From assembly GCA_002118135.1 (NCBI GenBank), contig BDIU01000351.1:1-64000 (forward strand): 64,000 bases of DNA, in the 5' to 3' direction. Under the pieces are notes generated by a model that was given only the letters and a program-made list of their open reading frames with translations, was not told the DNA's origin and did no database searches. How positions within the stretch are numbered: the stretch's first letter is position 1; every line of letters begins with the position of its first letter. A program made the position numbers and the translations under genes. Source of the stretch: Trebouxia sp. TZW2008 (taxonomy: Eukaryota > Chlorophyta > Trebouxiophyceae > Trebouxiales > Trebouxiaceae). Shown here piece after piece: positions 3,092 through 64,000 of this stretch.

Positions 3092-6000
3092 TTATAGACA
3101 TGCTTGTTGGAAGCTGTTGCACCCATGGCGATTGAATTGCAGTAAGCTGCTGTATGTGGCATCTGCTATTCCAACAAAGAATTTGTCCGCCTCAGGACTA
3201 AAGCAGATCCCAGATATCTCTCCAAACATGTCAATCTCTTGACTCCTGCAGCAGCAAGTTTACTTTCTGGACTGGCAGCATAGAATAGAAGAAGCAAAGT
3301 CTACGCCGTTGAACGTCATAGCGGTAGCCTCTGCCTAAAGAGGCAGCTTGCGTTTGGCAGCTTATCTCTGCAGATTTGCAACAATTGAATCAACTCTGCG
3401 GAAGAGTGCTCATGCACAACTTTCAGGCAAACTCCACAAGGCAATCAGTAGCAACGAGACTGGGCACACGACTGGGAAATGGACAATGTCCTTGGCATCG
3501 AAAGCTGCTACTACAGCATTAGCTCAGCATCTGCATAACACAGCTCCACATGTTCTGAAAATGTCTTTGCTCACCTGGTACCTCATAGCTAACGAACCAG
3601 GTAGCTGATGCACCAGTGCATTGGGTATGCCTAATGACATCTACACACTGTCTTTGCCAGATTAACGGCAGAGACTTCTCTTGACTGCAGCACAGTGACT
3701 ATGCAGCTATGGCAGCACCACTCCAGTGCAAGGCTGTGTAATGTCTTCTTTCAATTTATGCAGTGGCCTTCACAATGCAGCTTCAGCCTGCCTGTGAACT
3801 CCTGATTTCACATCAAATGTATGGACAAAGATTGCAGGCTCAGCCACAGCAAGAAACCAACCTACTTGTAGGACCTTGACTTCACATCAAACACATGGAC
3901 AAAATCTACAGGCTCAGCCACAGCAAGAAACTAAGCTACTTGCAGAATCCTGACTTCACATCAAACACGTAAACGAAATTTGCAGGCTCAGCCACAGCAA
4001 GGGACTAATCTGCCTGTAAAGGGGCTGATTTCACATCATATGAATGCACAAACCCCATATGAATGCACAAACCCCGCAGGCTCAGCCATTGCAAAAGCTC
4101 TGTTTGCAGACAATACAGGTAATCACAATGCAGCTTACCTCAAGAAACCTGACGCAACATCAAATACATGGACAAAATCTGCAGGCTCAGCCATGGCAAG
4201 AAATCTGCCGTCAGAGCTGAACCTGAGGGACCTGACAGCGCCCATTCTACCACTCAACACTGCAAGGCTCTTTCCAGGTTGTCGTATATCCCATACTCTG
4301 GTGGTCGTGTCCTGCAAAGACATGTGGGCTCAGCAATACAATGTTATGATGCAGGCTGTCTTACGTCCCACATCCTGGTATTGTGAACCAGCACACACAT
4401 ATGTGTAGATGTGAGCTGAATCTCAATGCCCATCCTGCCACTCAACACTGCAAGGCTCTTCCCAGGTTGCCGTATATCCGATTCTCTGGGGGTTGTGTCC
4501 TGCATTGACGTGTGCTGCCACTCAATATCGCAAAGCACTCCTCAGGTTGTCATGTATGCAGCATTCTGCACACACATGCTGTCACTCAGCACTGCTAGGC
4601 TTCTCCAAAGTTCTCGTGTATCCCATCTCCCAGTAGTTGTATCCTGCATACATATGTGCTACCCTCAGCACTGCCAGCCCTTTTGAGGCAGCTGTATGTG
4701 CAACATTTCTCTTGATCGGACCCTGCTCATGCATGTGTGCAGCTTGCCACTCAGTAGTGCAAGGCTCTTCCCAGTTTGGCGTATATCTGATACTCTGGTG
4801 GTTGTGTCCTAAAAACCCATGCGACACCCTCAGCACTGCTGAGCCTTTGCCAGACTGGTGTACGTGCCGCACGCTGAAAATCATGACCTGCTCATGCATG
4901 TTAGTGGATTGTTGCTCAGCATTGCAAGACTCTTCTCAGGTCGACGTACATCCCATATTCTGATGATTATGTCCTGCAGACTCCCCTCAACACTTCACGG
5001 ACTCACACCTGATTGCCAGTAGCTAGCAGGTGTCCGTCAGGATGCCGCGCCGCTGCAAACGAGTAGTCCCAGTGGCGTGCACAAGACTGTTAGTGACAAA
5101 GCTTGGCAACACCAGTCGCTCTTTACTTTGATCAATTGACTAGTGTAATGATCTCAAAATCAAGCACTCTGGCACACTCTCACAAGTCCACACCTGATTG
5201 CCGGTAGCTAACAGATGCCCGTCAGGGGGCCACGCTGCTGCAAAACACTACTCCCAATGACCTTGCAGCGGCAGTACTTGCTTGCTGCTCTTTCTGTTTT
5301 GATGTCGCGGTTTGATAGGAATTGTGTCAGCATCAAGCAGGCTTGCACAATTACAGGGGCCCATACCTGATTGCCGGTTGCTAACAGATGCCCGTTAGGA
5401 TGCCACGCTGCTGCAAAGGAGTAGTCCCAGTGTCCCTTGAGCGGCAACACTTGTTTGCCGCTCTTCAGGTCTGTCAGCTGAGCTACAGGGTCATCCCCAA
5501 CCACTGCTACTAAGCCATCATTGGTTGGACAGGCGGCTGCAAAATTGACGGCCCAGTCGTATTCTAGCCGGCTGCAAGCACAAAACTTCTCAAGTCAGAT
5601 CGTATGCTGAAAAGCACCCTGCCTCAAACCCCTAAACCTGCTGCAACTTTGCTGCGATTTGCCAGTCATGCTCCTGCTGAACAAGAAAGGAGACGGGGAG
5701 AGACCAAATCATTGAAATCGTCATTTCAATGACACAGAGCCTGCATTTTCCTTCCTGGGAGTCATCCCACCAGCAGCATACACAAGCCCCAAGATGCAGA
5801 GACAATGTGGTCTGCAAGCTATATCAGCGATCTCCGTTTCGCTTTGCCAATAGTGGTGTCATGAGAATGGTGTCACTGTTTGGGGCGGGAAAACAGCAAA
5901 AACAATGATGACATGTTGCACATTGAAGACAGGTGTTTAGTGTGTGTGATCCAATTCCTGTCTTGCCAGGCCTCCTTGAAAGCGCTAGCCCAGAATGTCC

Positions 6001-9000
6001 ATGACATTCCAATCATTCAGTTCATTCATTCATAGATTTCTGTGCGGCGGGTGAACAATGCATTGCATTGAGACTTTTGTCAAAGCTGTAAAGAAAGAGG
6101 CAGAAGCTAAGAAGAAGGCGGATCTAACGCATGCTAGACAAGCTCAGCAGCCCCAGCTATGTATCAGCCATACACTCAAGATTTCTTCTAAACACTTATC
6201 AATTCAATGGTTTACTTCTCCTCTATTGGATGTTGGACTCACCTGATGACTTGAAAGTGGGCTGCATCGTACACTCGCACCATCTGATCATTGTTGGCTG
6301 TCAAAATCCGGGTGCCACCGCTGCTTGTGTGGAAAATGCCAATGGCATTGGTGATACCATTCTCATTATTCGTCACTCGCATGCTGCAGACGCACACGTC
6401 AATCACAATGAGCAAAAGATGATAAATGAGAATGATTTGCAAAGTCACTGCATGTTACAGTACATCTTCAAGCATAGGTGCTAAGGGGTGCATGTCCCAA
6501 GTCCTAGCTTGCGTGACGACAAAACTTGACCTCGCTGTGTAGCAGCATGAGCGCACGGCTTGTGTTGAAGCATTGACGCCAAGTCTGCGTGAGTGTGTGA
6601 GCTGACACAGCTGAGCATGATGTCAGCATCCAAGCATGCAAAGTGCAGATTGGCATTTTCATGCACAGGAGGGCAGGAAGAACAGCATGTACAGAAGGGC
6701 CCCATGAAAGTGTAGAAACAATGCAGTTGGAGCTGGCAATCATGACAATGGCAATGTCCGGCAGTGGCGGTCCAAATGCATAGTGATCTGATGGCCTCAC
6801 CTACATGTACAAAACAATGATTGGTGTAAAGGACAGGGCAGCAAGCACCCTACACCATTGGCATGTGCGCCAGCAGGGACAGAACAAGCATCGTTAACAG
6901 GTGACAGAGCGCTGCTTAACAGACCTACAAACAGGGTGTTGTTGTTGGCTGATGTGCATGATGACCAGATTGCATGACTGGCTGCCGCCGTGATGCAGAT
7001 TATTCACAGATATTCACAGCTGATCACAAAAGAATGCAAAGATGATAGAGATTGTTCAACAAGCTGGCTGATAGGGTCTTGTTGGCTGGTCTTCATGATG
7101 ACCAGGTCGCCATCCAAATAAATGCCCAACTGACTGGCTGCTGCCCAGATGCAAATTGATGACAGCAGTTTGCAGTTGGATACAATGAAATGCAAAGACG
7201 TATGCAAAGCGCCTAACAACCCATGTTGCGGCCAACAGAATCCAGCCATCAGCTCCACTATCAACCATGACAAACAATCCATGCCAGCAAGACCCTCAAC
7301 TACTCAGACGCCCAACAGACCTGCAGACAGGGTCTTGTTGGCTGGTGTTCTTGATGACCAGGTCACCACTGAAGCCTCCAGCCGCTATAAGGTTGTCCTG
7401 CACACACACGGTGCTGACCACCACCTTACCCAACCCGGGGGCAAAGCTTCTGCTGGAACCCCCTGACAGGTCCATCACCTGCAGCGACGGTACAAATTTT
7501 CAAGACCAAATGGTGGTCATGATAACACGGTGTTCTTGATGACCAGGTCACCGCTGAAGCCTCCAGCTGCCACAAGGTTGTCTTGCACATACACGGTGCT
7601 GACCACCACCTTACCCAACCCGGGGGCAAAGCTTCTGCTGGAACCCCCTGACAGGTCCATCACCTGCAACGACAGTACAAATTTTCAAGACCAAATGGTG
7701 GTCATGATAACACGGTGTTCTTGATGACCAGGTCACCGCTGAAGCCTCCAGCTGCCACAAGGTTGTCTTGCGCATACACGGTGCTGACCACCACCTTACC
7801 CAACTCGGGAGGAAAGCCTCTGCTGGAACTGCCTGACAGATCCATCACATCTGTCAACAGCAGCTTCAAAGGTGTAATGCTTGTTTGTGTCTTTCAGTGC
7901 TGGATGAGGCGGATTGAATTAGGCAGATTCAGGCAGGCACTTAGCGCAAGTAAAAGATTTCAGGGGGAAAATGGCATAACTCTGGACTGGCCTTGTGCCA
8001 AGTCACCTGCCAAGCCCTGAAACGACTTGTAGCAAAACCGATGATGACGCGAGCCTATTGCATGGAGAGCTGTATGAGTGCATGCAGATGTCACTGTCAA
8101 AACTGAAGGACTTGAGAGGCGCTGTGATGCCTCCAATCGAATGTCATGCGCGGCGACCATTGCCAGATGACCATCAATGAAACAGTGACACATTTTTAGA
8201 GGCGTTTAGCAATCTGCATCATGAAATATTGCGACTGCATCATGCATTCGTGCAGTTTTGCGCATTGTCTGATGCCGTTGAAGCAGATTACCTCAGAAGT
8301 TTGACGCGTCAAGCTGTTCCAGTGCTTCACACAGTGATCATGCATGAAATACAGATCATGCTTTGAAGTTGCCCACAAAAGGTTGCGTAACTGCAGCAGC
8401 ATCAGGAGTCAGTTTTGTACATTGCTCATGAAAAGGAAAAGATAAAAAGAAGAAAAGCCCGCGCACTTAGGCTTTACAATACTCCGCATGCTTCACAGAA
8501 ATACTATGTCATGACCCCAGGCAGGTAGAGAGAGCGGGACAGTAATTTTACATGCTTTAGCCGGCCAACAAGGCTGATCACATGTGCGTGGCAATGACTA
8601 TATGTCGATGACATTCAGGCAGTCTATGACACGGTGAAACACCCTCAAATGATCATGTTGCGCAAAAGAAGGGCACATAGCAGTGTGCTTCACAGGCATC
8701 ACAGCATAGTGACGCTATAACTTCAAACATGTTGCAGTAGACAACATTGGCAAGCTCAAATCACTAGATGCCACAGCTAGATGGCATCTGCTGACAGAGT
8801 GCACCAAAACAGTCCAAGTATGGGTTCAGCGCTGCAGGTAGACACATAACATACCTGAAAATGCACAATTGTGGATTTGACTGATCTTGAGTTTCTGTAA
8901 AAATCAAAGAATCTGTTGCCCTGCAACAGATAGAGCAGGCATTGAGGAAGCCAGCCTAAAAATAATAGGCAAAACCAATCAATCTGATGATCAAGAAGGC

Positions 9001-11129: not shown

Positions 11130-14100
11130 TCATAAGTTGAACATGACTTTGATGGCCTTGGTCTCCACAGATCTCAGAGCTGTGTCAAAACCCTTGGCCA
11201 CCTCTTCTTCAGAGAAACCCAGGCGGTGGGTAATCAAAGGGAGCACATCCACTTTCTTGTTGGCCAGCAGACTCAAGCACAGAGGGTACTGCATCAGACA
11301 CCAGTCAACGTAAGGATTGTGGCTACTGTACAATACACACCAGTCAATGTAAGGAACAGTTGATGTCAGATATGTCTGCATGCAATGATGACATGTTGTG
11401 CACACATCAGGAAAAACCACACCAGATAGCAAACTGACAATCTAGTGCGTATCATTCCAACGTCAATGTGTGAACTTGAAACACGCTTGCTCTGACTGCG
11501 GCGCCAGAACAGATGCATCTTCAAGGAGGAAAAAGGCGCTTTGTCAGATGGACAACAATAAGTATGTATCACATTGAGATTCAAATCAATACCTGCCAAC
11601 TGCAGCACCAGACAAGGGCAAATGCATCTTCAGAGGGAAAGGAAAAGAGCTGAGGGAAAGAGGTGCTCACTGTGTTGGCATATCTGAAGCAGCCCAAGAC
11701 GTCCAACTCATGAACACCCACAGTTGACATGGGCAGGGTCATGTTGTCCTGCCCCATACCCACAACCACCACCTTGCCACCCATGCAGCATGATCTGATG
11801 GCAGTCTGCACAGTGGACTCAAAGCCCACGCAGTCAATCACTATCTCAGGCCCATATGGGCTCAACATCTTCTTCAGGTAGTCTGCAATCTCCTGAGGAG
11901 TGGCTGTCCTTGGGTGGCAGTAGGCCTCAGTGGCACCCATCTTCTTGGCTAATGCAATGTTCTGGGGGCTGATGTCGGTGATGGCCAGGCTGGTTGCGCC
12001 AAAGGACTTGGCTGCTGCCAGTGTCATCAGACCTGAACACAGTAGCACAGTTCATCAGTAACGCTACTGAAGTCACTTTCTGTGTAAGGCCATTGTCATC
12101 AGACCTGAGCACAGCAAAACGGTTCATTGACAACGCTACTTGAGTCAGCTCTTTTGGCTGCTGACATTGTCATTGACCTGAACGCAGTAACATTTCATCA
12201 ATGCTACTGAAGCCACTTCTTGTTTTGGGCTGCTATAGCGTGGTCAGACTGGAACGCGGCAAGACAACTCATCAACGACGCTACGTAAGTCAGCTCTGAT
12301 ATGCTGACAATGTTGTCAGACCTGAAGACACAGCACATTCATACTGTTGCTGAAGCCATCTCCTAGATGCAGTCTGGATGCACATGACATTGGACTGGTC
12401 TTGTCTTGTGTCTGACAAGCCACATGTATCTATGAAATGCCTAGTCAGTCTGAGTCAGTGTTTGCAAGCATGACTCGGGATAAAACATGTCAACCTAACA
12501 TTTGCTGACAGAATAGCAACCAGACACATGCCTTGCAAGTATGTGTGAATGACATGCGCCGTTCAACGGCTCAAAATTGAGCCAACTGGTTTGGCAGATC
12601 AAGGGCTTCAGCTGCTTATGATGTTTGGGGCTCATGCACAATTACAAGCGCAAGCGCTTTTGCTTGGACACAGATGGTGATGACTCTGTTGCAGGTTGAA
12701 CATGAGCAACCTCTGCTTCAAGCTTCAATAAACATCAAGTATGTATTCTGAACTGGCCAGAACCGTAACAGCTGCACACAGCAGCGCATGCGCGTGTAGT
12801 GCTGCTTGATCAGTCAGGCATGCAGAGCGAGACTGCTATGCTTGTGATGATAGTATCATGGAGCACATGGATCAACACAGCCATAGTGAATTTTGAGTGA
12901 GCGACGTGTCAGCGCTTTGCTGATACAGGTACTGCTCATGCATGACAGATCCAGGCACTGCAAATGCAAGATGGGCCACAGCACTGCAAAGCAAGATTAC
13001 TGGCTGCACTGTGAAAGCCTGAATGAGCAATGCAGCAGGAATATGAAGAGGCTAATCAGTCAGGGCAGCATACCAATTGGTCCCGCGCCCAAGATGACTA
13101 CATTCTTGCCAGGCTCAACCTTGCCTCTTCTGCAAGCGTGGATTCCTACAGATAGAGGCTCACACATTGCACCCTCCTCAAAGGTGACACCCTCAGGCAG
13201 CTTGAAGCAGAACTCTGCAGGGTGATCTATGAACTGCAGGAAGAAACAAACTGATTTGAGTCCATGTTTGTCTGTTTTGCCGGCAAAACCACAACAGGGT
13301 CGAGCTTCAGCCAAATGCGGGCTACACTGTGTACAGACAAGCGCCTGCAGGTCATTGTGAATGCTGCATAGACTTTGGTGCCGGTTAAGCATTTGCGAGA
13401 AGGCAAGACGCTGCCCAGAAGTATGTAAGCCTGGTGCATGGGCGTTTGGTTTCTTACGTTTGCCAGTGATCCATGAACAGGAGGAGTAGCAAAGAACTTG
13501 ATGTCTGGACACAAGTTGTAGCGCCCTTCCCTGCAGCACAAGATCCAGGTTCAAAGCAGCTCAAAGGTGATCACTTTCAAAAAGAGTTCAAGCAAAGTGT
13601 TGCCTCAAGCACACCTTGAGGCTCTGTTGGTCCAGCATGGCACACCGGGCTCAATAGCGACGTGATCGCCTACTTTGATGTCTCTGACACCAGGGCCGAT
13701 TTCCACGACAACACTGCACAAGCAGAGACCGCAGGGTGAGTCTGGCGAAGGTCAACAGCGTGCGGAGCTTCTGTATCAGTCACTGCAGGTATAGTTAAAC
13801 CGGCCAGACTCTTGCAATCACAGCCCGTCTGAAACAAAAATTGCGGGCTCACCCTGCTGACTCGTGCCCGATGACCATAGGCTCATTGACGACGAAGTCG
13901 GCAATCCGACCCTGGACAAAAGCATTTGCACCATCTAAAACACTTGATTTCGCACCGACAGAAGCCGCAAGCAGCACTTACTCTCTTCCAATAGTGCACG
14001 TCTGAGCCACAAATGCCAACTGCCTTGACTTCTATTCTGACTGTGCCTTCTTTAAGGGTGGAGGCCAGCGGGAACTCCTCATATCGCATATCATTCACGC

Positions 14101-15048: not shown

Positions 15049-18000
15049 TCACTCGTCATGGCGGTACAGCTCCTTGTCAATGTGGTCTGGCAATGTCGTA
15101 ATGTCCACATCAAATCTCTCTTGGACCTGCACAAGAAAACAGCGGTCAAAACCATGACTTGCAGCTCTGTCTGATGCATAAGCAACTCAACTACCAATTA
15201 CCTCATCTGACTAGCAAGGACAGAGACACACTGGGCAGCATGTACCTGATTGAGGACCTTGGAGTCCTCCTCAGATGCTACAAAAGTGATAGCAAGTCCC
15301 TTGGTTCCAAAACGGCCAGCACGCCCGACCTAGCATACAGCAGTCAGTCAGAAATAGACAGTCTTTGTATGGAAGGAATGCTTGAGCAGAGACAAATTGC
15401 AGCAGGCAGTTGTTGCTTACCCTATGTAGGTATGTGTCAGCACCATTGCCATGCTTGATGTCTGTTTCTGGCATATCATAGTTGAACACCACGTTGACTC
15501 CCTCTATGTCAATGCCGCGCCCAATCAAGTCTGTTGACACCAGAAGCCTCTTGGCACCCTTCTTGAAAGTGCTGCACACCACAAGAAAGCCTGAGCAGAT
15601 GCAGAGAAATGTACCTACTGAAAAACAGTCATGGCAACAGGACACAGCCTGTCATTTTCAATACTGCTCAACAAAGCACAACCTTCAGTGCTGCACAGGG
15701 ACTACGCACATCAGCAGAGCTCTGACAGCAGCTGGTCTGATCTAGAAGTCATCTGAGTGCTGACCAGATGATCTACGGAAAAGTGGTATAAGCTACAGCA
15801 ACATCATACATGACACAGACTAGTGCAATGGCCGTGTGTCATGTGAGCTTACTTGTACACGTCAAGCCTCTCTGGCTGCCTCATGGTGGATGTGATGACA
15901 CATGCTGGAAACTGGCAACTCTCCAGCAACTTCCCAAGCGTCTCAGCACGCTTTGCAGACTTGACAAAGATGACAACCTGTGACAAAGCAAGTTGAGCTA
16001 ACCAGTTAGATGTAATTGAAGAGCTTGCTCCTTGGGCCAGTCACATCTACACTAGGCAATGCAGAAAACAGATTCACAAGCTAGTAGTCCAGCCACTCAA
16101 GTCCTGTTGATCAAGCATGTGCACAAGCAAGATCACAGACATAGCATAGACAAGGCAAGTCAAGATGGCAGAGCCATGCTGCAGAAACTGCAAACTTGTC
16201 AACTACAGTCAAGGACCTGTGCATGCAGATGACATGAAATGTGACTGTATTTGATGATGGTGATGATGAAGCCTCATTCGCACCTGGTTGAAATCTAGCT
16301 GATCCAACAAATCCATGAGCCTCTTGTTCTTGCCATCCTCGCTCAGCATTGTGTAATGCTGTACCAGCCCATGCAATGTAAGCTTGGACTCATCATCCAC
16401 ATACACCTCCACTGGCTGCACCCAATAGTTTGCCAGTCAGCACCCTGTTGTCACCTTTTGTCTGTACCCCTTGACCTTTCAACGCACTATGCTGATTTTG
16501 GCAAACACAGCACGTGCACTGAACACGTGGATCAACACTTGCAGGGCAAAAGGCAATGAACAGCAGAAAGTACTGATTGCAATTGCCAAACTCCTTTGGC
16601 AGTTGCTTTCTAGGGTGCAGAATATCACAGCATGCAATCATCATAGCATTCAGATGCAATTGCCAAAGGGTTTTGGCAATTGCTTTCCAGGGTGCAAAAT
16701 GTCACAGCATGCAATCATCAGCTGTAGCAAACAAATGCACAACATCGTCAGAATAGAGCTGGGCAAGACTGCACAACCCTGACACGCCGGCGCAGGAGTT
16801 GCCTTCATCAAAGAGCTATCACAACCCATTTTCCTTCATGGACAGCTTGCCGGACCATACTTCTGGGCTGTTGTAGGCATAGCTGCAGAATGGTTCTGCT
16901 GAGAGATTGTGTTGCTTGGTCCTCTCATCACACTGCCCAGAGTGAACGAAATGGTCCCATCATACTGCCCAGAGTGAATGACATGGTCCCATCATGATGC
17001 CCAGAGTGAGACGACATGAACGCAATGCTGTCCAGAGGAAGGGATGTGACAGCCTTGGTATTGGGGTGACTGCTTTCATGTGACTGCAAACCCCCAAAGC
17101 CTTGCTGTTGGCGCTGAGATACAAGTTGATGCTGGGGAGGCAAATGCTGCACATGTTGAACTGACTCAATGCCACCGCTTGTAGTTTCTGCTGGCAGCTG
17201 GAAGTGCAGTTGCCACAGAAGCTGCTTGGAGCTTAGGCAGCTGAGGCGCCAATAGAATGACTCACGTTGTCCATGAACCTCTTGCACACGGGTCGCATTG
17301 TGTCTGAAAGGGTGGCTGAGAACATCATCACTTGCTTGTCATGGGGGGTGGCTTTGAAGATTTCCTGAACATCTTGCCTCATGTCTGCAGAAGAAGCAGC
17401 AAAGTGAGGAGACAGGCTTCTAAAGTCATGACCAGCTGTGCCAACAACAATGTGAGGACTGAGCGTCTCGCTTTCCAAAGTCTTGAGGCCTTCACTGGCA
17501 AGTGATGAACAGGAAAGACGCATGATGCTTTGGCTGTTCTCACCTATACTTTCCAGCATCTTATCACACTCGTCTAGGACAAAGTGCCTCACATTTGCCA
17601 GCTTCAGAGCCTTCTTCTGGATCAGCTGCAGCACCAAGCTTATCAGGCACAATGATCACTGGAAGATACATCTGAGCAGCACAGATGAGCTGATTCAAAA
17701 ATTCTTGCTTACCGCCTTGATGCGACCAGGTGTGCCAACAACAATGTGAGGACTAAGCGTCTCGCTTTTCAATGTCTTGATGTCCTCTGACTCTTGCACA
17801 CCTCCAAAGAAGGTGGCCACTCTAGGCTTCTCAGCCATAGACTCGTTGAAGCGTGAGAACTCACTGGATATCTGCAAAGACATGCCAATGTACCTTACAC
17901 ACTGTAGAGGTCAGAAAGTTCCAGGTAGCCACGCAAGCACATGGTAAACGGCCTACCTGGAAGGCAAGCTCTCTGGTGTGAGCCATGACAAGAGCCCCGA

Positions 18001-21246: not shown

Positions 21247-22296
21247 AGGCTGCAATCACATTTGTCACTGTGTGCCTTGTACTGTGGGGTGATCCGTTTC
21301 ATGCTGTGAACAGCTGCTGAATCACAACTATCAAGTTGCGTGTCTGAAAAACTTGAGTGCGGTATACATGCACATCAGGGACTGCAAGACAGATCAACCT
21401 CAGCCGTTCAGTTCATTGCCAAGCATCAAATGCTGCACATGGCTACAGTAAACTCTCTTTGTAAGGACACTCGATGTAAGGACAATCTCGATGTAAGGAC
21501 AATGCCTTTGGTGACCAATCACTGCATACGGACTGCAATGGTCCCTCTGAGTAAGGACAATTCGGTGTAAGGACAAGTTTCTTGGTACCCAAAGCAGCCG
21601 TTACAAAGAGAGTTTACGGCTTTGTTCTAGTACTGGAAGGAGTCAGGATGCACGCGTACGGTTCTGTCGAAACCAGGGCTGCCCTTGCAGCAATTGGGGG
21701 AACAGGAGCCCTACAAAATATGCAATGCATTGTTAGCTCAGTTATAGTGCACAAAAAAATGCTTTCACACAAGGGCAGCACACCTTGCAGTGATGACACA
21801 TGCGCAGTGGTTTGTCCATCACCACAAGTGAGTGTTGCTTTGTACAAGCTGTCTGGGTGTTACTCAAAGGTCAACGAAAATGGTCACAGCAGATGTAGCT
21901 CTTGTGAGTCATTTTTGACCGCGCACTGCTGCAACGGACTACCTGAGTCTGCGGACAAGACTGAGGTTGGCATACATTTTTGGTGGTGTGACAAGAACTT
22001 GCCAGCGTGCGTCTGTTCAAATTGCTGGTACCGTTTGTCAACATACAGTGCTAGCGTGCCAGCAAGATCCCATGCACGATGGGCCGGTCGCTGAAACCGG
22101 GTTCCTGATCTGAAGCGTTGTGACAAATTGAGCATAAACTTGCCTGTAAACGAAATTGAAGGATACCGCTGAAACACAACATTGACTGCTGACTGTCAGC
22201 TTATACACGTGTAAGCTACTATACATTGGCAGTCAGAAAGAGAAAAGCAGCGTTGATCTGATGCAATGTTTCAGCATCTGGACTAGGCAGACGAAG
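21247..22296. other. Convergent 3' region with a MITE
   Basis: This lies between the stop of the plus-strand gene at 21246 and the PIE1 stop at 22297. It contains a complete MITE (21446-21617). The rest (21620-22296) shows no convincing exon or repeat and is probably 3' UTR and spacer. Confidence 0.45.
21446..21617. mobile_element. pogo/Tc1-like MITE, copy 2
   Basis: The ends carry perfect 17-bp inverted repeats: GTAAACTCTCTTTGTAA at 21448-21464 and its reverse complement at 21601-21617. The left flank is TACA, which fits TA plus CAGT-type ends. The last bases on the right are altered. Inside are five GTAAGGACA motifs arranged near both ends. This is the best preserved member of the family. 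Confidence 0.85.
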
Positions 22297-46200: not shown

Positions 46201-49200
46201 AGAAATGTTGAATGTCATAGGCAGCTGGGGTAGCAGCATGGCATACCTCCTCTTCTTCTAACGTGGCTTCATCATCTTCCGATTCCTGCATGCCCACATT
46301 GTACTCTGCGCTGCTCGCGTCATCTTGTTCAGACCTCCCAGCTTCTTCTTCCTCGTCCTCTGACAGCTCGGCTTTGAATTTGGGCAATGAGGCTGTTGTG
46401 GCAGCCCTTGCAGCTGAGATGACAGCAGCACTTCTGACTGATGGCAGACCCTCAGCTTCTGAAACATCCTCTGCATCAATCTGTCCATGAGCTTCTGCAG
46501 CAGCTGCTGGTAAGGCAGGGATGGCGGGTGAACCTGTGAGCATGGGCTGTGCGGCATCGCCACCTGGCAGGGCTGCTGGATCTTCTGCACCTGCAATGTA
46601 TATTTGAATATGTATGTTGATATGCTGCAAAAACAATGTAGACTTGGCGAGGTGCGCGCATAGCTCCTCCAACTGAGTCCTCAGGCTGTGCTTGTGAGGA
46701 AGAGGCAATTCTCAATGCTGCCAGCATATGCCAGCAACTTGACACTACCTAGCACATGTTATGACGCCGCTGTGACAACAGCTCATGTCCACCTACACAA
46801 CTGTACATGCAGTGCGATGCAATGCAGTGGTGACAACAATTCAAATCAGGCATGTAAGGCATCCGAGGTCGCTGAGCATTGCCCTGTACATTGTGTTGCC
46901 GTCACTTGACCTTGGCATGACGGTGCTGCTGTGCCCCATCTGCATGCATACAACAGATTATTGCACCTGGCACCAGAGGCAGAACAGATACCTGCAAGAC
47001 GCTGCGCGAGCAATGTGGAGTAGCGCTGGGTCTGGCCCACCAGGAAGTCCAGGTGCTTGTCCATCACCTCCTTCTTGCGCGCGTTGCTCACCACCTGCTG
47101 CTTAAACTGCACCACCCGCTCCACCTTGCGCCAGAACTGCATAGCCTGCGTAACATTGCCAAGAGTGAGACTGGCATGTGCAGGGCATGCATGTCCTGCT
47201 CCTCGTTATTTGGCATCCTGAGAGGCGTGGGCAGATGCTTTGTATGGTGTGATCACCTCAAAAACCCACCTGCATGACGAGTGTACAGGCAAAATTGAAC
47301 AGATTTTTCATTCAGACATCTGCTTTGGACAGCTAAGCAAGCAGCGCACCTCTTTGGCAATCCAAGCTGCCCGTCTCTTAAGTTTGAGCATCTCCTCTTT
47401 GCGCCGCAGCCGCTCCCGTCCTTCTACATCCAGGTTGGACTTGCTCACCAGTCTTGCAAAGCGCTTTGCCTGTGCTATCTTCCACCGCCTCTCTCTGCAA
47501 GCCAACTTGCATCGGTTCCCCAAAACTGCATTTGAGCCTTGAACATGATGCTCAGAAAAGGGCTGGCAAGGCAGAATTTGAGCTCCATACACCTAGCACC
47601 TTTGCTAGAAGTTGTAGCATAGTGATTTCATCAAAGACGTTACATTTGAGCTACAATGTCTAATGCTAGAAGACATTGGATGCAATAGGAGACTGTACTT
47701 GGAGAACTCCTTGGCCATCCAGTTCATTTCCTCTAGAACATGGTCCCAGTGCGCTTTGCCACGCTTGGGCTCTGGAAACGCTGGCAGCTGCTTCATGGTG
47801 CGGCGGTCATGAATGTCTTGAGCATGCTCTATGACGGCATCCTCCTGACGCAACTTCTCAGCTGCTGCAGCAGTTTCCTCTTGCACCCTGCGTGACTCAG
47901 CGCCTGCATGACATGCAGCAGCAATGTAATTCAGCACCTACATAGCATGCACCAGTCAATTTCTCTCTCTCTCTCAAACCGATAGATCTGTTGGCAGACA
48001 AAACAATGCAGCAGACTTTTGCTGTTGCTATGCACCTGTTCTGCAGATGCAGGATGGTTGCCATGCAAACAATGACATCTCAACATGACATCAAGCAATG
48101 TCCACGATGTCTGCTTTGGCAACGTAGAAACAAGCAACTACATACAAAGTACGATCGCAATGAGAGCAGCAACCCCCAGGTTGGAAAGGACGCAGCCGGT
48201 AGCTTGTGTGAGTTCTACTGTTGACAACCACAACTTGTGGCAAGCTGACTTGGGAAGACAGGACCTGGGCCGGGCACCCACCTCATGTGGCAGCCTTGTA
48301 ACACACATGACTTTTGTTTACATATGGCAGCTGACAAACCTGCTCGGGTCTTGCGGTCACTAGGGGAAGCTGGCTGTCTGGGTGATCTGGGGGAACTGGG
48401 AGACCTGAATTTGGGGGGTGCACCACCTGTTGGGGATCCCACTTTGGGGGGTGGGGCAGACCCCCCAGACCCCACCTTCAAAGGAGCAGGACCCTGGCAG
48501 GCAAGAAAGCGGATGATCAACAGGTCATTGATATAAACTGACAGAGTTGGGGAGACCTGACTTTGGGGGTTACAGTACCTGTGGGGAAACCCACCATTTG
48601 GGATGGACCAGACCCGCCCCCTGACCCCATCTTCACAGGGACAGGACCCTGGCAGGCATAAACCATCAATACACCAGCAACATGGTGTGCATGGCTTTGT
48701 GACTTCAGGACGCTCATCATGAAGTCTACATCTGGCAAGACGCGGCCCATGCAGAAACGTCTGTTTAGTCTTGAAAGCATAGCTTGCAAGCTCAGTCTTT
48801 TGCAATACAGTGGCAGTGCTGGCAAAGGCAGTCAAGCTGCCTGCTAGCATCAAGCAGAAACTCAACATGTAGCAAGACTGACATCATCAGTGGCAGCAAG
48901 CGTAAGAGATACAAACACAGACCTAGTACGCTGACTTCTCTTTGCAACGACTACATTAGCAAACAAAAGAACTGCCCTTCCATGAAACTGTCCTTACTCA
49001 GAGGGACCCACTGCAGCCAGGACGCACTGATTGCTTCCCAGTTGCATTGTCCTTACGTCAAGAATGTCCTGACATCAAGTGTCCTTACAGGCAAAACTTA
49101 CTGTAACAGCAACCATATTTATAACTCCGTTACAGGTGATAGGTCCTGCTGGCATTGAGGTTAACTCACCTTGGTGGAACGCAACACAGGACTCAAGTCT

Positions 49201-52160: not shown

Positions 52161-52189
52161 CCATTGCGGCCAAAAATTCCCAGCTCAAA

Positions 52190-54658: not shown

Positions 54659-57600
54659 TCAAAGCTTCCCCAAAGCAGCAATGAATCGGTCAATCTCATC
54701 TTCTGTATTGTAGTAGTGCACTGATGCTCTCAATGTTTTCTCGTCAAGGTTTCGCTTGGTGTAGTCAAGGAGAGTCCATTCAGCAGGAGCCACTGAAATG
54801 TTGATACCCATTTTGTTCAATGTAATCTTCACAGATTCTGGCTGCTTGCCTGCCTGCAACGATGTACATGTCAGCACGGTTTTGCACATGAAAATAAGAC
54901 TGCGCAGCAAGTAATACAAGAAGAGAGTCTGTGCCATCAGGCGTCATAACAGGAGCTTCTGTGAGCAAGCAAGCAAACTGATGCAAAGCAAACACAATCT
55001 CAACCTCTTGCTGCTTGGCTGTGACTGTGCTTGGCAGCAAATGTGGCTTGTGGATGTGCATGCGCTACTTGTGCTCACTAGCAGTGCATGTGCTGTCTGG
55101 CAGTGGATGTCACTGGCAGTGAACAAACACTTTTGTGGTAGCCTTGGCACTCTGGGTTGCTGCATGAAACTTGAACCACACAAAGCGGCCCTATGATGTC
55201 TGACAAAGATGCCATGTACAAGAGACCTGCCTACATGTTGTTGAGTTGTGCATCATCTGCTTGTGTGAGATGGCATGTGACATGAACGCATTGCAGTGCA
55301 GCTACAAAGCAGTGAGGATCTCCAAGCTGGCAACGTGGCAAGAAACCTGTCAACAACATTTGCCATGTTGTGTGTGATCTGCTTGAATTTGAAGGCTTGT
55401 GACAAAAAAACATCAGAAAGCAGCCGCAAGGCAGTGAGGTACTGACCAGACTGAAGCTGCAAGAATCCTGTCAATATCATTTGCCATATTTTGTATGATC
55501 TGCTTGAATTTGAAGGCTTGTGACAAAACAGCATCAGAAAGCAGCCGCAAGGCTGAACAGACTGAAGCTAGCAATGGCGCAAGAAATCTGTCAACAGCAT
55601 CATGTTGTGCATGATCTGCTTCTGTTTGATGGTATGTGGCAAAAAAAATTGTAAAAAGCAAGGTAGTGATGTACTCACCAGACTGAAGCTGACTATGCCA
55701 CACAGAACACGCCCTGTATCATGTACTTGTGCTCCTGGAAGTGCTTGCAGCTTCTTCCTCAGGATGCCTGCCAGATGCTGTATGCGCTTCCATATGTTGT
55801 CGATTCCTAGACTCAAAACGTACTCTGCAGCCACCCCTAACCCGACCTGCAGGACATCACCAACACAGCTATTGGCCACAGGGCACTTTTTCTGACAATG
55901 CTATAAAGTTGGTGACTTCCTGCTAAGATCTTGTGCTCCTTCTATACAAATAACTATACAATATGTAGTGATTCATGTCTACAGGCCTATTGGCTACATT
56001 TCCAGTGCATCAGGGCATCTTGCACTTGGCAACAAGCAGCAACTTTGCATATCCATTGGCATAGAGAAAAACTCTACAGGCACAGAATGAACAAAGCTTA
56101 TAACGCACAAACCTTGGCAGCAAAGCTCATCTCGTACACTTGGCGGTTGGATCCAGCTCGTACTCTGTCTCACCGGTCCAGACGCCCCCATGCACGTCCA
56201 CTATGGCAGGTTCTCCTCCGCTCTGCAAAGCCTGCCTGTGCATGCAGACACAAGCCAATACATTAGAAAGAGAGAGAGAGAGTAATTTTACATGCTTCAG
56301 CTAGACAACAAGTCTAATCGCATGTGCCACAAGTGGCAAACTCTAATTCAATCAACTGAGTTGTGTGATTGTATCATTGTAAGTCATGAGCGACAACAAA
56401 AACAAACATTGGTACAATGACTGCATGTGTGGGCAAGTCACTAGTCCAGACGCTCCCATGCATATTGACCATGGCAGGTTCTCCTTCATTCTGCAAAGCC
56501 CGCCTACAACACAAATCAATACAATAACATTCTCACTGTGGAGACAATGCAGTTGAGGCTCGGTTGCTGCATTCTCACCGTATCATCTCTTCTGGGAAAG
56601 AAAAGTTTGGTACCGGGACAAGTTCCTGAGGCACAACTGCAGTTGTTATACCAGAGTGTACTGATTACAGTGTTACAGGACATGTACTGTACCTACAAAG
56701 ACGCTCAGAACAAGCCTGCTGGCGAGACAAGATTTGGGCCACACAAACCCAGCGCACATGGTAAATGGTTTACTTAATGTCACTATTAGTGTGATGCAGT
56801 TGGAACAAACACCAAGACTTGGCAGTGCTTACCTGAAGGCATACAAGAAGCCAGTACCCCGCGGTCCTCGCAAAAACTTTCTGCCAGTTGAAGTGAGGTA
56901 GGTACATTGCAGCGCTTGCACGTCTACAGCAATCTGGCCGACTGCCTGAGTTGCATCCAAGAGATAGGGAACGTTATGTTCACGTGCAATAGCGCCAATG
57001 TCAGCTGCATTGGAATACACTCTTCCTGCAACAACAGGCCAACATCACAAGTTGTCTAGATTGCCTGTTTAGTCACAATGCAGCGCTTGCATGTCCACAG
57101 AAATCTGGCCGACGGCCTGAGTTGCTTGCAAAAGATGTGCTATGTTTGCGAGCAATAGCGCCAATGTCAGCTGCATTGCAATACACCTTTCCTGCAACAA
57201 AAGACAACCGTTACAAACAATACATGAGCTCTTGAGCACTAGCATTCAGATCATCAAGTCTGTCTTTTGCCATGAAGACCCTGGCAGACATCAAGATCTT
57301 TTACACACTAGCTCATGAAGGCACAGCTTGCATGATGGCACACAAATTGGTGCATATAGCTGCCAAGCTGCGGACTGATGAGAATAGTGAAGCCCAAACT
57401 TGTCTAGATTGCCTGTTGCTTGACTTCAGATGAACTGGACACTGCCCTTGTGTTTCTTTTGTCATTTGTATGTCTTGGCTTCAGACCGGTTTATGCAAAT
57501 GGCCTGATACATGATATGTGGTCCATTTTGAATCTGACTTTGGCACCAGTTTCAGGTACCATCAGGCTTGAAGTTCAATCATCGAAGCGCGACACGCACT

Positions 57601-59666
57601 TCCCCTTGTCTTTCTAGGGAGGTATGAGGACTTGCAAGCAAGATGAGGACCTCACCGCCCTCCATGCTCAATACAAATGGTCTAGGATAGCACAGGATCA
57701 GACTGGTTGGAGACAGTTGCTTACTCCAGTACATACCTAGCTGGGCCTGCTGAGCCTGTCTAGCACACGTCTAGCATGATGAAATGAATGAAAATGAAGC
57801 CAGATACGGTGGACAGTAGGCACTGATCAGAGCTTGTAGGGATATAGGTGATGGCAATCAGGCTAGCTTGCGTGAACTTGATGTGACCAGTGTCAGAGAC
57901 CATTGATGTGCAATACTCACTTTTGCTTCTCTTGCTAGAGAAACAAATGTGACTTCTCTTTTTAACGCCACTCACTGTAAGGACAACGCAATCAGAAACA
58001 AATAACTGCACTCTGGCTGTCATGATACCCGTGCATACAGACAATCTGATGTAAGGACAATTTTCTTGGAGACCAAAGCAGTCAATGTACAAAAAGTCAC
58101 TGTATGAAAACTTGCAAGCAAGAGACAGTGGAAAGTGGGCACTGACCAGAGCTAGTAGAGATGTAGGTGATGGCAATAAGGGCTGGCTTGCATGGACTGT
58201 CACCAAACGCCGAAAATCTTCCAGGTCGACATCCCCTTCTGCATCCTCTTCAATGATCTCAACTTTCACCTGATGACATTTGCTTGCCTATGACATCAAC
58301 AATCACAATCGTTACATTTGAAAGCAGCAATCCCGGCTGCCTCTTTAGACAGGGGCTTTCGCTAAGACGCCTCACGGCGTAGACTTTTCTTCTCTTTTTA
58401 ACAGTCATAAAGGTACATGCTTTGTATTGAAACGCTGCCTTGAGTCACGATCTTGAAGTGAGTGCACAATGAGGTCACAGGCATGAACATTGATCTGCAG
58501 CTGAATGACATTTGAGGCAAAACGTACGGCACAGGCTCTGTATCGAATCCCTGCCTCTGAGAATCATGAAGTCACAATGAATGCACAATGAGGTCACAGG
58601 CATTTGATGATGACCTGCAGCTGAATGACATGCAAGCCACCCAAAAACGCAGCCTAGTCAAAAACATGTCAGATTAGGAGAGGCTGAAGGAATGTAGCAA
58701 TGCAAACCAGCATTGCATGCATACTAGTGTACATGTATACTAGTGTATTTCTAGTTTGTTGAGATGAGTCCAACCTGCAAAAATGCTAGGAAGTTGGAAC
58801 CGTATTCAGAAATGGAAGTCAAGATCCTATCTCCTGGCTTTAGATTTAATCCTCCAAAGACCTGCACTGCGCATGAGGTTTGCTGTGCTAGACTTGAGCT
58901 ACTGTTTGCCCTCCTGTTGGCACATGTTTCATCCCTCAAAGTGCACGGTTGTTGACTAGTCAGCAAAATATGCGATGGTTAAGCAACACAAATGCCATTT
59001 ATGCTACAGCTGCAACATGCTGTAGCAAACAAGTGTCTCAGATGCTAGGGAGGACTTGCTGCTGATCAGCTGTAATCGAGTGCCAACATCAAGTGCCAAC
59101 ATTCAGCATCAATGTTGAGACTCATTTGATGGGCACTCCACATGCAGCCAGAGCTAATGTGCCAAAGCTCAATGCGGTGAGCTTGATTTCCTATAGTAAT
59201 AGCGGACCTGAAACCATGCAGTTGTAGAGCTTGTGACAATGGCAATCTGATCTGGGTGGCAGTTGATGAGCTTTGCCAGCGCAACGTAAGGTCTTGCAGC
59301 AGCTTCTGATTGCTCTGCCAGTGCCTCATAGCTACGGTCGTCAAAAGGAGTCAGGCAGAAGCAGACCAGCATTCCGTTGCCAGCTGCTTCCGTGGAAGGC
59401 GTGCACAAGTTTTGGGGTTGCAAGAGCTCTCTCACCCTCCGATCCGTCCTTCAAGAGCGATGAAGTCGTGCTGGGCCTGAAGGACCTGTTGTGTCGGCAG
59501 GGCGCTGCCTGCACAGAAAGCGTCTCATCGTGCGCAGATCAGCCTATAAAGCAGGCTTGCGGTCAGCACAGGACCTCATTCTCGTCGCACCTGCGTTATT
59601 GAAGTGTAGTCTAGTTTCGGCAGCCGGTGTCTCACTGCGAACGTGCGCCCAATCAGGCGCAGACAT
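54659..59666 (-). CDS. Class V PLP aminotransferase (cysteine desulfurase/epimerase-like), frame breaks
   Basis: ATG at 59666 ([20 protein letters not shown]; an in-frame ATG at 59780 would add an Arg-rich leader). Clean exons: 59591-59666 (LHFNNAG), 59436-59508, 59208-59331 ([20 protein letters not shown]), 58775-58861 ([20 protein letters not shown]). Then [50 protein letters not shown] and [19 protein letters not shown] (PLP lysine), [36 protein letters not shown], and the C-terminal [21 protein letters not shown] ending at 54659. The fold is that of class V enzymes acting on cysteine-like or epimerase substrates; the exact reaction is not fixed. Two junctions (near 58185 and 56143) are out of frame by one base, so this may be a recent pseudogene, a wrong assembly or an unusual splice. 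Confidence 0.75.
55230..55640. repeat. Tandem intron repeat in the aminotransferase gene
   Basis: Units with CATCAGAAAGCAGCCGCAAG, GAAACCTGTCAAC/GAATCCTGTCAAT, TGATCTGCTTGAATTTGAAG and GCTTGTGACAAAA recur four times at about 110-120-bp spacing, the ends decayed. The block GACTGAAGCTG-TRCTCACCAG-type donor context of the VSFSL exon is included. Confidence 0.75.
56262..56345 (+). repeat. Short dispersed repeat, family with GTAATTTTACATGCTT, copy 2
   Basis: A GA run is followed by GTAATTTTACATGCTTCAGC, then ACAACAAGTCTAATCGCATG. It matches the copy at 8524-8630 and lies in an aminotransferase intron. Confidence 0.5.
56435..56515 (-). pseudogene. Decayed duplicate of the aminotransferase exon ([15 protein letters not shown])
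   Basis: It translates as [17 protein letters not shown], matching [17 protein letters not shown] of the exon at about 56170-56225. The copy lacks the following TEYELDP and lies upstream in transcription, in an intron. A related duplicate of the [13 protein letters not shown] exon lies at about 57075-57195. Confidence 0.7.
57075..57195 (-). pseudogene. Decayed duplicate of the DATQAVGQ exon
   Basis: CAGCGCTTGCAYGTCYACAG, then AATCTGGCCGACGGCCTGAG and GCCAATGTCAGCTGCATTG, repeat the genuine exon (about 56905-57020). The copy has internal changes that break DATQ, and it is located in the neighbouring intron. Confidence 0.7.
57620..57775 (-). repeat. SINE-like repeat, full inverted copy
   Basis: In minus-strand sense it reads GTGCTAGACAGGCTCAGCAG, GCCCAGCTAGGTATGTACTG, CTCCAACCAGTCTGATCCTG, and ends GCATGGAGGGCGGTGAGGTC. 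This is the best match to the copy at 26502-26720, and it lies in an aminotransferase intron. Confidence 0.6.
57840..58240. repeat. Two copies of the exon [15 protein letters not shown]
   Basis: The copy at about 58139-58190 ends in AGCTCTG|GTCAGTG and keeps a donor. The copy at about 57830-57890 ([13 protein letters not shown]) has ATCAGTG instead, so its donor GT is lost. The MITE at 57947-58102 lies between them. Confidence 0.7.
57947..58102. mobile_element. pogo/Tc1-like MITE, copy 4 (aminotransferase intron)
   Basis: The left end is ATGTGACTTCTCTTTTTAA and the right end AAAAAGTCACTG|TA. Inside are GTAAGGACAACG, an AACTGCACTCTGGCTGTCAT core and GATGTAAGGACAATTTTCTT. It is 156 bp and missing one clean TA, but is clearly a family member. 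Confidence 0.75.
58338..58400 (-). repeat. Short A-rich-headed repeat, copy 3 (inverted)
   Basis: On the minus strand it reads AAAAAGAGAAGAAAAGTCTA, CGCCGTGAGGCGTCTTAGCG, then TAAAGAGGCAGCC. This matches the copies at 2100 and 3289. Confidence 0.55.
58430..58640. repeat. Two-copy tandem intron repeat
   Basis: The units share CACAATGAGGTCACAGGCAT, GACCTGCAGCTGAATGACAT and a CTCTGTATYGAA-YCCTGCCT segment, at about 115-bp spacing, inside an aminotransferase intron. Confidence 0.65.
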
Positions 59667-60440: not shown

Positions 60441-63400
60441 TCACTCATCAAAATTGATGTGCCCTCGGTTTCGTACGTTTGCTTGCATGTCATTCCAAAG
60501 AATGGGTTTGGCCCTGTTTGGCTGTTTGCTCTGTGCCTTTGGGGTTTTTTTCCTCATTACTGGTCTTGAAGAAGCACCGCTGCGGAATTGCTGCCGCTGA
60601 CTTACGATAGACTGTCCAATCCATTGTTGCTGCTGCATGGGGGACTGTGACCGCACGTTGCCTGCAGCTCTGCAACATGCCAAACATGTAAATCAGTTTT
60701 TTGAGGCATGAATGCTTGGATGCTGCTACAATAGGTGATCTCGGCGGTTGCCGGAAGGTGGCTCGTCAGTGCCATTATGGGAATCGGCTTTCAGATCACC
60801 AAATAAGTAAACATGCAAGTCGACACTGTGCATGGCAACGCTTGCTGAAGACACCCAGTGGACCAGTATGCATAAGACCACCGCCTGCAGCAGTGTTGCC
60901 TGAAAGCTCAACAGGAATGCAATGCTCTGGATAACAAGATTAAGCAGGCTCAGCCAGGAATGTCATTGTGACTTTGGTATTTTGCTGCATGCATACGGTT
61001 GCTATATAACTGTGGTCCCTGAACTGCCGAGTGCAGCACCATAGCTCTGCAGGCTGCAAATGATCCAAAAATGAGTGATTTGAGACATAGTCTTGGCTTC
61101 TTTGAAGGATACACCTGACAGCTCAGAAAGCTTCAACACAGTCTCAGCTGCCGACAGCCTCAGAGCCACTTGGCTCACAAGCTGTGGCATACACTCACTT
61201 GCAGATTTTGTCACAGGACATCAACAAGCATACACCTGATGCAGGCCATCAAACACAGCATCAGCTGGGAGTCTTACTTGTTGGTGCTGTGCAGCCATTT
61301 TGCAATGTTCTTGGGCAGGAGTGTCAGCTTGCCCAGCTTTGGGTCCTCCTTGGTCCATAATCTTAAGCGCCTCAACATGGCAACCACACCCAAAGCTGTC
61401 TTGTCCTTGAAAGCACCCATAGACGCACAAGGCCGCTTGTCACTATGGACCGCAGCTGAAGTGAAGAGGAACGGGCTTGCAGCAGCAAGGTTGGCTGACA
61501 GCGGCTGCTGCAGGAAGGCCTCTTGCTCTTCTTCATCATCTGACGCTGTACTATGCCGTCCTTGATCCCTGCACATGCATCCATTCATTCATTCATGATG
61601 GATTAGGACAGCGATATGTTTTGCAAGGCGTCGACGGTTTTGATGTTTGTAAGATGAAGCGTGCGAGAAATGACTTTGCACGAAACAAAGCATTTGCAGC
61701 TCTGTTGATGCCTGAACTGGACAGCTTGCAGCCTCAGGCGGCAACAGCAGAGGTCAGCAATGATGGTGCGGCAGCTGTGCATAGTAGTGCTCAGGAGACA
61801 GGGCAACTTCTTGGCTTGCTTAGCAGTGTGAAGCGCTACAGCAAACCTGCAGCACAACAAACAAGCAGGAGGCGCACCTGCTGACATCATAAATCAGTCA
61901 ACTGCTACTGTCAAAAAGACCCTATAGGGCGTCGTACAGATAATGTCAAGAGAGTCAATCTATGATGTTGAGATGCATCAGAGGGTCACAAATTGCTTGA
62001 AGCGTTGGCAAGGTATTTTACACAGTGTGCAGTTCTCAAATCGTTTGTACATGCAACATGATACAATGACCAGTCAGTATTGCAAAAAGCTGCTCAAAGA
62101 ATTTTTTTTTGATAGACTTTGCTCAATACGAAATAGCAGGCTGTGAAGCCCACCTGATTTTGGACTTAGGGGAGTCTTGAGCATAGCTCGGGAAGTAGAC
62201 TTGTCCTCGGTCAAACGGCTGAACCAGAATAGTGATGGCATGAGGTCCAGTAGGAGTGGCCCTGCATGTAGCAATTCATATTGATGGTAATAATAGTATG
62301 TTACACGTTCCAGCAAATGTGCTGTCAATGTGTGGCCAAAGTCCTGTCTTGCCAGGCTAGTTTGTAGCAATTGACACTAAGCTAAAGCCACTCACAAAAT
62401 AAGCAGTAATGTTGATGTCGTCACAAAATGGTATCACAGCTCACATCAACTGTGTGCACTGGTACGAAGCCACTTTCTGTAGCCCAATCTGTGGTCCGAA
62501 GGCAAATATGGCAACACGCGCAAGTCTCCTGTGTGCTGTAAGATGACTTGCTCAAGCTTCACGCAAAAGTCACAGACTGTCAGATTGGTCTACATGCCAA
62601 CTGCACAGTGCGACTTGGCTTGTACAACTGTATCTGCGTGTGCAGACTGAAGACAGGACATGATGAAGATTATCCCTGAAACAGCATGAGCACTGGCTGC
62701 CTTCAACCACAGTCACAGGACAGACACTTGACAGCGTATGAGATGCATCAGCATAGGGCAATTGCCTGTGACCCAAGCTTGCGGTAGCAAAATTGTCTAT
62801 GATGCAGTGATCAACACCCATGGCAAAAGAGTCTTACGTTTGCGACGCCCTTTTCAGGACAGTCATCATGGCCAGCACATACACTTCTGCCACCGAAGGC
62901 GGCATCTGCCGCAGATCCACAATGCAAGGCCCATCCAGCCTGCATCAACATCCAAGTTTGAGCTTCACACGGGAAAATTATATCTGGCACTGAAGGCGGC
63001 ATCTGCCGCAGGTCCACAATGCAAGGCCCATCCAGCCTGCATCAATATCAACGTTTATGCTGCAACAGGCAAAATACAATTCTGCCACTGAAGGCAGCAT
63101 CTGCTGCAGATTTCACAATGCAAGGCCCATCCAGCCTGCATCAACATCCAAGTTTAAGCTGCAACAGGCAAAAATACCTCTGCCCCTGACATTGCGTGCT
63201 GAAGCGTTGAGCGACTATCATGAAAGGGGGCACAACACCAAGGGCAACAGATTCCTCAAGGATGCTAATGGCTGCTGAGTCAAAGCAGTATTGTTTTCAG
63301 GCAACTCACACCATCACAGTACACCTCAAGACATGACCTGCGCTGTGCATAGTGATAGCTGCCATTACAAAGTGATGCCACAATAAGACAGTGCTGGACA

Positions 63401-63561: not shown

Positions 63562-64000
63562 CTGCACACATCAATGCACATCAAAATTGGGTTCCAAACG
63601 CTTCACAAGATGTAGAGATATATTCAGCCAGTTGACCAGACCCACTGGACACCCAAACGGAGTGGTAGTCCACTTATGAAATGCAGAAGTACGCTCAGCT
63701 ACTTGATCTTGCCCACCCAAGATAGGATTGCTTTGCACATCAAGTTAGAACATGCTCACTTCGCGAGATGTAAAGGCACGATCAGCCATCTGACCTTGCC
63801 CAATGCAGATGGGGTTGCTCTGCAGATCCATTCACATCAAATTGAATGTCAGTCAATTTGTGAGTTGCAGAAGTATGCTCAGCCATCTGATCTTGCCCAC
63901 CCAAGATGGGATTGCTCTGCACAAAAAGCACATGAACATTGGATTCTAATCACTTCGTGAGAGTCACAGCCACGCTCAGCCATTTGACCTTGCTGAGTGA
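63215..64000. repeat. Copies of the exon FDPAAISILEEAVALGVVPP and of its acceptor
   Basis: A decayed exon copy at about 63215-63280 reads FDSAAISILEESVALGVVPP. To the right of the genuine exon, the acceptor edge (CAGAGCAATCCCATC on the coding strand) recurs near 63730, 63815 and 63915, joined to TGATCTTGCCCACCCAAGAT or related segments and a CTTCRYGAGATG-type spacer, to the end of the window. Confidence 0.7.

Follow-up and report, generated by a model that had tools for sequence, protein, structure and literature searches.

The local repeats found in 314 kb of this genome are probably the decayed remnants of many independent short tandem duplications, usually of 60-200 bp, whose sites were probably not chosen for being exon edges. 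A duplication across a splice donor would place the extra copy downstream in the intron, and one across an acceptor would place it upstream. Since the extra copy then lies in an intron, splicing can remove it, so that the protein stays unchanged and selection tolerates it; duplications within exons would mostly be lost. The copy would afterwards decay freely and the exon would be held by selection, and thus the exon-derived half of a duplicate remains recognisable after its intron-derived half has blurred.

Our sample comprises the window (the whole stretch of DNA under study, 64,000 nt, contig C329), a 200-kb block (C273) and a 50-kb block (C100), from three contigs of a genome of 68.5 Mb in 527 contigs with a G+C content of about 50%; the Trebouxia A48 genome is given as 69.1 Mb and 49.7% G+C in the available text of its description (PMC12712428). 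Three genes of the window, all on the minus strand, were checked by protein homology, namely, a UAP56/DDX39B helicase, a sorbitol dehydrogenase and a SWR1/SRCAP remodeller, and their exons (8, 7 and 14, respectively) form a curated set of 29, in which SWR1 exons I and O are supported by our gene finder alone and exon J mostly so. The closest named proteins to UAP56 are those of Trebouxia sp. C0009 (83%) and C0006 (82%), with one further protein at 83%, and other named green algae, e.g. Elliptochloris bilobata, reach about 62% or less. The genus is thus likely, though not proven, to be Trebouxia. Exon edges beyond the curated genes are predictions of a purpose-built ab initio HMM gene finder; since it fuses adjacent genes and sometimes calls copies exons, a "predicted intron" may contain intergenic sequence. 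In SWR1 it called decayed copies exons, adding about 100 residues (copies plus spacer) that have no SRCAP counterpart, and automatic annotation of the genome can likewise mistake dead exon copies for exons. It also reads as coding a GCAGG microsatellite of 20 copies in an SWR1 intron (40225-40327). Over the 314 kb, predicted acceptors follow the consensus TGCAG closely (T 84%, G 82%, C 95%), and the intron side of predicted donors is weakly defined after the GT, the best base at +3 to +6 reaching 37-55%. No RNA families or tRNAs were found in the window.

Local direct repeats and their unit size

With a fixed score threshold of at least 42 bits, we detected 216 direct pairs spaced 40-1500 bp apart in the 314 kb (75 in the window, 113 in the 200-kb block and 28 in the 50-kb block), versus a single inverted pair at 40 bp-1.5 kb, which is still the only one when the range begins at 25 bp; five palindrome-like matches lie closer than 25 bp. 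The orientation is thus the direct-only one of tandem arrays. Dinucleotide shuffling, done once for each sequence, yielded no direct pairs and one inverted match below 25 bp, and a 50-kb E. coli control gave no local direct pairs. The recurring local process proposed in the preliminary description is supported. In the window at E<=1e-3, there are 67 direct pairs, 64 of them at most 1000 bp apart, and five inverted matches, one a palindrome and four more than 16 kb apart.

The 216 pairs form 91 arrays, of which the window contains 28, the 200-kb block 49 and the 50-kb block 14. These arrays are real and well beyond chance, but the earlier picture of introns "filled" with them goes too far, since they span 22% of the sequence in the window and 10-12% in the remaining blocks. 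In 47 of the 91 arrays the match takes up at least 80% of the spacing, i.e., the copies abut head to tail (side-by-side arrays); in 32 it covers less than 60% (patch arrays), and 12 are intermediate. Direct matches of 11-mers peak at 160-200 bp (29-35 per bp, a peak weighted by long arrays), drop to 3.9 at 200-220 bp and recover to about 9-10 at 320-340 and at 360-400 bp, with inverted matches at 1.2 or less throughout.

The units of 42 of the 47 side-by-side arrays measure 62-200 bp, thus not exceeding an Okazaki fragment (about 200 nt), and the other five measure 210, 273, 345, 353 and 384 bp, some of which are possibly double units. Among the smallest spacings of all 91 arrays, 29 fall at 141-200 bp and three at 201-260 bp. 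For the side-by-side units, smooth gamma and lognormal fits predict a ratio of 0.23-0.26 between the 201-260 and 141-200 bp classes, and 1 to 18 was seen; since smooth curves are still compatible with these counts, the fall above 200 bp is steep, though not proven sharp. A simple nucleosome period was rejected, because the side-by-side units are evenly spread over 62-200 bp, so that a limit fits better.

The array of SWR1 exon A, the one of the 91 that was searched across the 68.5-Mb genome, matches only itself and two short sequences, which agrees with the earlier statement that the unit is gene-specific rather than one transposon. A second full copy of the searched SWR1 stretch, sought for empty sites, is absent from the genome, with short matches only. 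It is hardly credible that the arrays are a mobile element or introner family, as no element common to many genes appeared for the one array so searched, although three short dispersed repeat families do lie mostly within predicted introns. Hardly more credible is an assembly artefact, since most copies differ by 5-30%, unlike assembly errors, and the pattern recurs in three contigs.

As for these dispersed families themselves, one of about 153 bp (8527-8679), within a predicted intron, has at least 43 matches (39 of 492 candidates scored), mostly 84-89% identical and in both orientations. Another of about 118 bp (26497-26614, plus strand; 57650-57768, minus strand) has at least 41 matches, its own position being one of them, with 40 of 994 candidates scored, also in both orientations, and its six matches in the 314 kb, itself included, all lie within predicted introns. 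The third, of about 168 bp (21444-21611 and 48937-49105), has 13 matches in the 314 kb including itself, 11 of them wholly in predicted non-coding sequence; the others of at least 130 bp are 68-84% identical.

Copies at exon edges and their decay

A search reaching 1.5 kb to either side of each curated exon (29 in all) gave 24 copies at nine exons (seven of 14 in SWR1, one of seven in sorbitol dehydrogenase and one of eight in UAP56; Table 1), at most five for one exon with both edges combined, and none in a distant stretch or on the local reverse strand. Similarity of introns to their own exons thus exceeds the controls. That nearly every gene is affected was an overstatement, given copies at nine of the 29 exons checked. 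Nor do all arrays involve exons, 16 of the 91 being non-coding in their best pair as scored below. The splice donor or acceptor is indeed often included: 20 of the 24 copies cross the exon edge, comprising exon and adjoining intron with the splice site, and the remaining four end within 11 bases of the edge.

Table 1. Source exons, exon-edge copies and tandem arrays in the window
Feature	Position	Strand	Remarks
SWR1 exon A, intact source, GLGKT motif	43090-43253	-	aligns to human SRCAP; source of five copies
SWR1 exon A, three donor-edge copies	42982-43006, 42854-42936, 42702-42767	-	84-91% identity; direct; downstream
SWR1 exon A, start copies	43341-43380 (crosses acceptor), 43459-43498 (begins 9 bases inside exon)	-	78-85%; upstream
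SWR1 exon B, intact source	41920-42118	-	aligns to SRCAP
SWR1 exon B, acceptor-edge copies	42187-42256, 42299-42395	-	84-86% identity; GTGCAG retained in both
SWR1 exon B, donor-edge copies	41761-41837, 41524-41609, 41405-41470	-	76-87%; downstream
SWR1 exon D (40569-40705), donor-edge copies	40464-40511, 40330-40368, 40133-40172	-	80-87%
SWR1 exon G (39016-39139), start copies	39334-39383 (crosses acceptor), 39524-39548 (begins 7 bases inside)	-	76-84%
SWR1 predicted exon I (37900-37983; gene finder alone), short donor-edge copy	37821-37842	-	91% over 22 bp
SWR1 exon K (36719-37075), acceptor-edge copy	37141-37230	-	82% over 90 bp; in-frame stops
SWR1 exon L (35955-36113), acceptor-edge copies	36192-36270, 36367-36454	-	82%; inner ends within 1 base of each other
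SWR1 exon L, donor-edge copy	35777-35869	-	76% over 93 columns
Sorbitol dehydrogenase intron, tandem array of about 72 bp, acceptor edge of exon 11593-12032	12089-12342	-	offsets -73, -140, -287; protein match
UAP56 intron 4, 57-bp copy of an internal exon 3 segment (17724-17780), past exon 4	17430-17486	-	93%; offset +294
UAP56 intron-only 77-bp tandem pair	16578-16739	-	82% over 85 bp; no curated exon overlap
185-bp unit, 2.7 copies, with predicted exon of WD40-like gene	7344-7848	-	95% identity; predicted as three exons
122-bp tandem array in predicted aminotransferase-like gene	55245-55691	-	direct repeat search
97-bp tandem array, about three copies	62879-63189		direct repeat search
74-bp tandem array and displaced copy	3796-4203		direct repeat search

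The copies are bound to the side of the edge from which they derive. Among the 24 curated copies, all those of donor edges lie downstream and all those of acceptor edges upstream, and the same holds around predicted exons for 26 of 27 donor copies and 35 of 38 acceptor copies, with eight of the 73 pairs set aside as lying inside an exon or spanning one. This coupling is expected from tandem duplication with the surplus spliced out, and a randomly pasted nearby patch would not give it. Of the 27 donor-edge blocks, 13 stop as little as 4-14 bases after the donor, which fits tandem duplication poorly. Outside the aligned blocks, faint homology persists in the intron-side flank (mean z 1.08, 7/24 above 2) but not in the exon-side one (mean z 0.18, 1/24 above 2).

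The copies are dead or dying. In the alignment of SWR1 to SRCAP, the exon A donor-edge copies (42702-43006) stay unaligned. Exons and copies differ at 52/378, 35/380 and 87/378 first, second and third codon positions, respectively, a pattern that would result from drift in the copy together with largely silent, third-position change in the exon. The same third-position excess, with fewer changes at second than at first positions, could be taken as a sign of selection on the copies, either as functional alternative exons or as regulatory decoy splice sites, as could the presence of in-frame stops in only one of the 24 copies and the retention of the acceptor AG in 29 of 33 cases against 23.0 expected (P=0.02), an excess that pure decay would not predict and that may reflect chance or gene-finder bias. 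However, the stop count is not significantly below neutral (P=0.17-0.31), 5/24 copies have frame-shifting gaps, and the donor GT is retained in 17/24, at the neutral rate (16.7 expected). Moreover, an alternative exon has both splice sites and an open frame, whereas edge copies have one splice site only, and a copy of SWR1 exon A has NQK for DEM ahead of GLGKT. Functional exons were thus rejected as the explanation, and we consider them very unlikely, the frame, stop and donor tests being unsupportive and the acceptor test mildly supportive. As to individual arrays, the 185-bp array may have two or three near-identical exons spliced in, and a reading frame near the 122-bp array matches Pfam Aminotran_5 at 21.3 bits, below the cut-off of 21.5.

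Median identity is 75.6% in side-by-side arrays and 84.6% in patches; if exons change mainly at third positions, both imply, by our own arithmetic, about 0.12 changes per site, with the caution on age that short patches pass the score threshold only at high identity.

Tandem duplication against pasted patches and gene conversion

We scored an array as non-coding when neither copy of its best pair contained as many as 12 predicted coding bases, and took random placement as the null. The 47 side-by-side arrays overlap predicted coding sequence at the random level (non-coding, 10 against 11.0 in the null; coding in one copy, 14 against 11.8; coding in both, 23 against 24.2), so that the special action at exon edges implied by the preliminary description receives no support, and the process is probably not aimed at them. 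Over all 91 arrays, 16 are non-coding against 25.8 in the null (P=0.007), and exon-intron pairs in the curated regions are in mild excess (16/23, null 11.2, P=0.03); intron-only pairs number 42 of the 216. The coding bias over all arrays sits in the 32 patch arrays, of which three are non-coding against 10.8 in the null, with none of 400 nulls as low. Survivorship is the simplest account and may explain much of this bias, since a slowly changing exon can still be matched to its copy long after two unconstrained stretches of intron have ceased to resemble each other.

The patches also bear on the main rival explanation, templated patch insertion, whereby a break in an intron is repaired with 40-100 bp pasted from the nearest exon edge rather than by side-by-side units. 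Its best illustration is the 57-bp copy in UAP56, which ends within the exon at both ends and, lying past a whole exon, would require a later deletion under tandem duplication. In line with such pasting, 29 of the 32 patch arrays touch predicted coding sequence, and the sequences flanking 49 high-identity pairs resemble random ones (mean 0.32 vs 0.33). Filler from break repair is usually found in both orientations, whereas only one inverted short-range pair occurs here. Two further observations speak against pasting, namely, the coupling of copy direction to exon edge and the homology between spacers in at least one pair of 5/8 curated arrays (one probably low-complexity; none in 3/8), together with the faint homology of the intron-side flanks. 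On balance, we regard templated patch insertion as unlikely.

The short exon patches are nevertheless unexplained by neutral simulations of tandem duplication, which counts against our preferred reading. In 11 of 12 simulated parameter sets the high-identity blocks were as long as the spacing (0.46 of it in the twelfth), versus observed medians of 0.32, 0.52 and 0.42 in the three sequences for pairs of at least 85% identity. Shorter high-identity blocks (0.26-0.82) arose under a small number of high-indel or quiet settings, with no more than five pairs in each. Simulated arrays were 32-61% intron-only, compared with the 42 of 216 pairs observed.

In another reading, the exon keeps converting its copies once tandem duplication has taken place, so that the exon-like part is refreshed while spacers drift. 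Such gene conversion would explain the exon-like cores beside diverged spacers in the intron after SWR1 exon A, where the cores are 83-100% alike over 23-57 bases and the alignment of spacers exceeds shuffles in only one pair of three. In favour of it, the copy at 42854-42936 jumps from 69% over 26 bases to 98% over 56 (mosaic P=0.006), and the mosaic test on 14 curated copies gives a combined P=0.018. However, among 50 exon-intron pairs genome-wide only five have P<0.05 (combined P=0.19), and conversion in its simple form should refresh intron-intron pairs equally. Because the mosaic test is weak genome-wide, gene conversion was rejected as the main cause, and we hold this combination to be rather improbable.

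Timing, source and comparison with known systems

Returning to short tandem duplication, the wave of events seems mostly old. Only 3 of the 216 pairs are at least 95% identical, compared with 13/98 and 5/33 in steady-state simulations, so that the wave looks old unless the assembly collapsed recent copies. A duplication rate that is high at present, which the preliminary description had allowed for, is accordingly disfavoured, with the reservation that such collapse could conceal recent copies. Its suggestion that local duplication lengthens introns is supported by the arrays of exon-edge copies within introns. The size limit near 200 bp, which makes the mutational source testable, and the restriction to same-direction copies suggest a replication-linked source, which would most likely be mis-processed Okazaki fragments.

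The growth of introns and the differences in intron length among lineages are an old question with few visible intermediates. An exon-edge copy paired with its selected source exon makes the size, age, direction and fate of an event readable in a single genome. A bolder possibility, which we regard as doubtful, is that much of the intron length in a Trebouxia lineage stems from a single former wave of replication errors, none exceeding the length of an Okazaki fragment or nucleosome repeat (about 200 bp). Such a wave would have left some 20,000 fossil arrays that can be dated, a number that is a straight extrapolation of 91 arrays in 314 kb to the whole genome. If this were true, each exon would provide a fixed clock for dating its own dead copies.

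Introner elements have caused large-scale intron change in a green alga. They differ from the present arrays in being a shared element, none of which was found for the array searched (SWR1 exon A). In the model of Rogers (PMC3443670, PMC2891723), as set out in the available parts of these papers, an AGGT-bearing piece of exon is duplicated, and the likeness to our arrays lies in the local tandem duplication of exon sequence. Its diagnostic feature, a homologous register between the two splice sites of an intron, is absent here: none of 581 predicted introns has an in-register identity of 50% or more, although old births may escape this test. Some local similarity between donor and acceptor occurs in 25 of the 581 (control 4/2903), and the best 12 of these 25 have in-register identities of 0.21-0.44, at least one of them lying in a mispredicted exon. 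Creation of introns by AG|GT duplication, raised earlier as a possibility, thus left its signature in none of the predicted introns, and the evidence favours intron lengthening, not intron creation. The tandem genomic duplication across an intron-exon boundary in a potato RdRp gene is a known comparable system that, according to the available text of PMC4974935, is one young event with a new intron, whereas here there are scores of decayed events with no sign of intron-making. The crossing of an exon edge, typical of this potato kind of duplication, is shared by 20 of the 24 curated copies.

Among mutational mechanisms, the direct-repeat-mediated duplications (ABA to ABABA) of rad27/FEN1-deficient yeast resemble our arrays in being direct and local, and the Okazaki synthesis of about 200 nucleotides stated in the excerpts of PMC5677150 is near the limit seen here; flanking short repeats are a feature of the yeast events, and the palindromic template switches of yeast are not seen here. 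Fill-in by CST-Pol alpha at breaks with 3' overhangs likewise yields direct small tandem duplications, but the insertions reported in the available portion of PMC8355091 are shorter than 100 bp, with 43-bp overhangs, and the units here reach 200 bp. Among the matches listed in the open-access PMC literature, we found no report of such arrays in Trebouxia, and the word "tandem" is absent from the main text, as available, of the Trebouxia A48 genome paper (PMC12712428). The size limit of about 200 bp is likewise undescribed in the accessible parts of the open-access literature found. Taken together, these comparisons place the arrays as a known kind of mutation at an unusual density, in which the size limit of about 200 bp is what is new.
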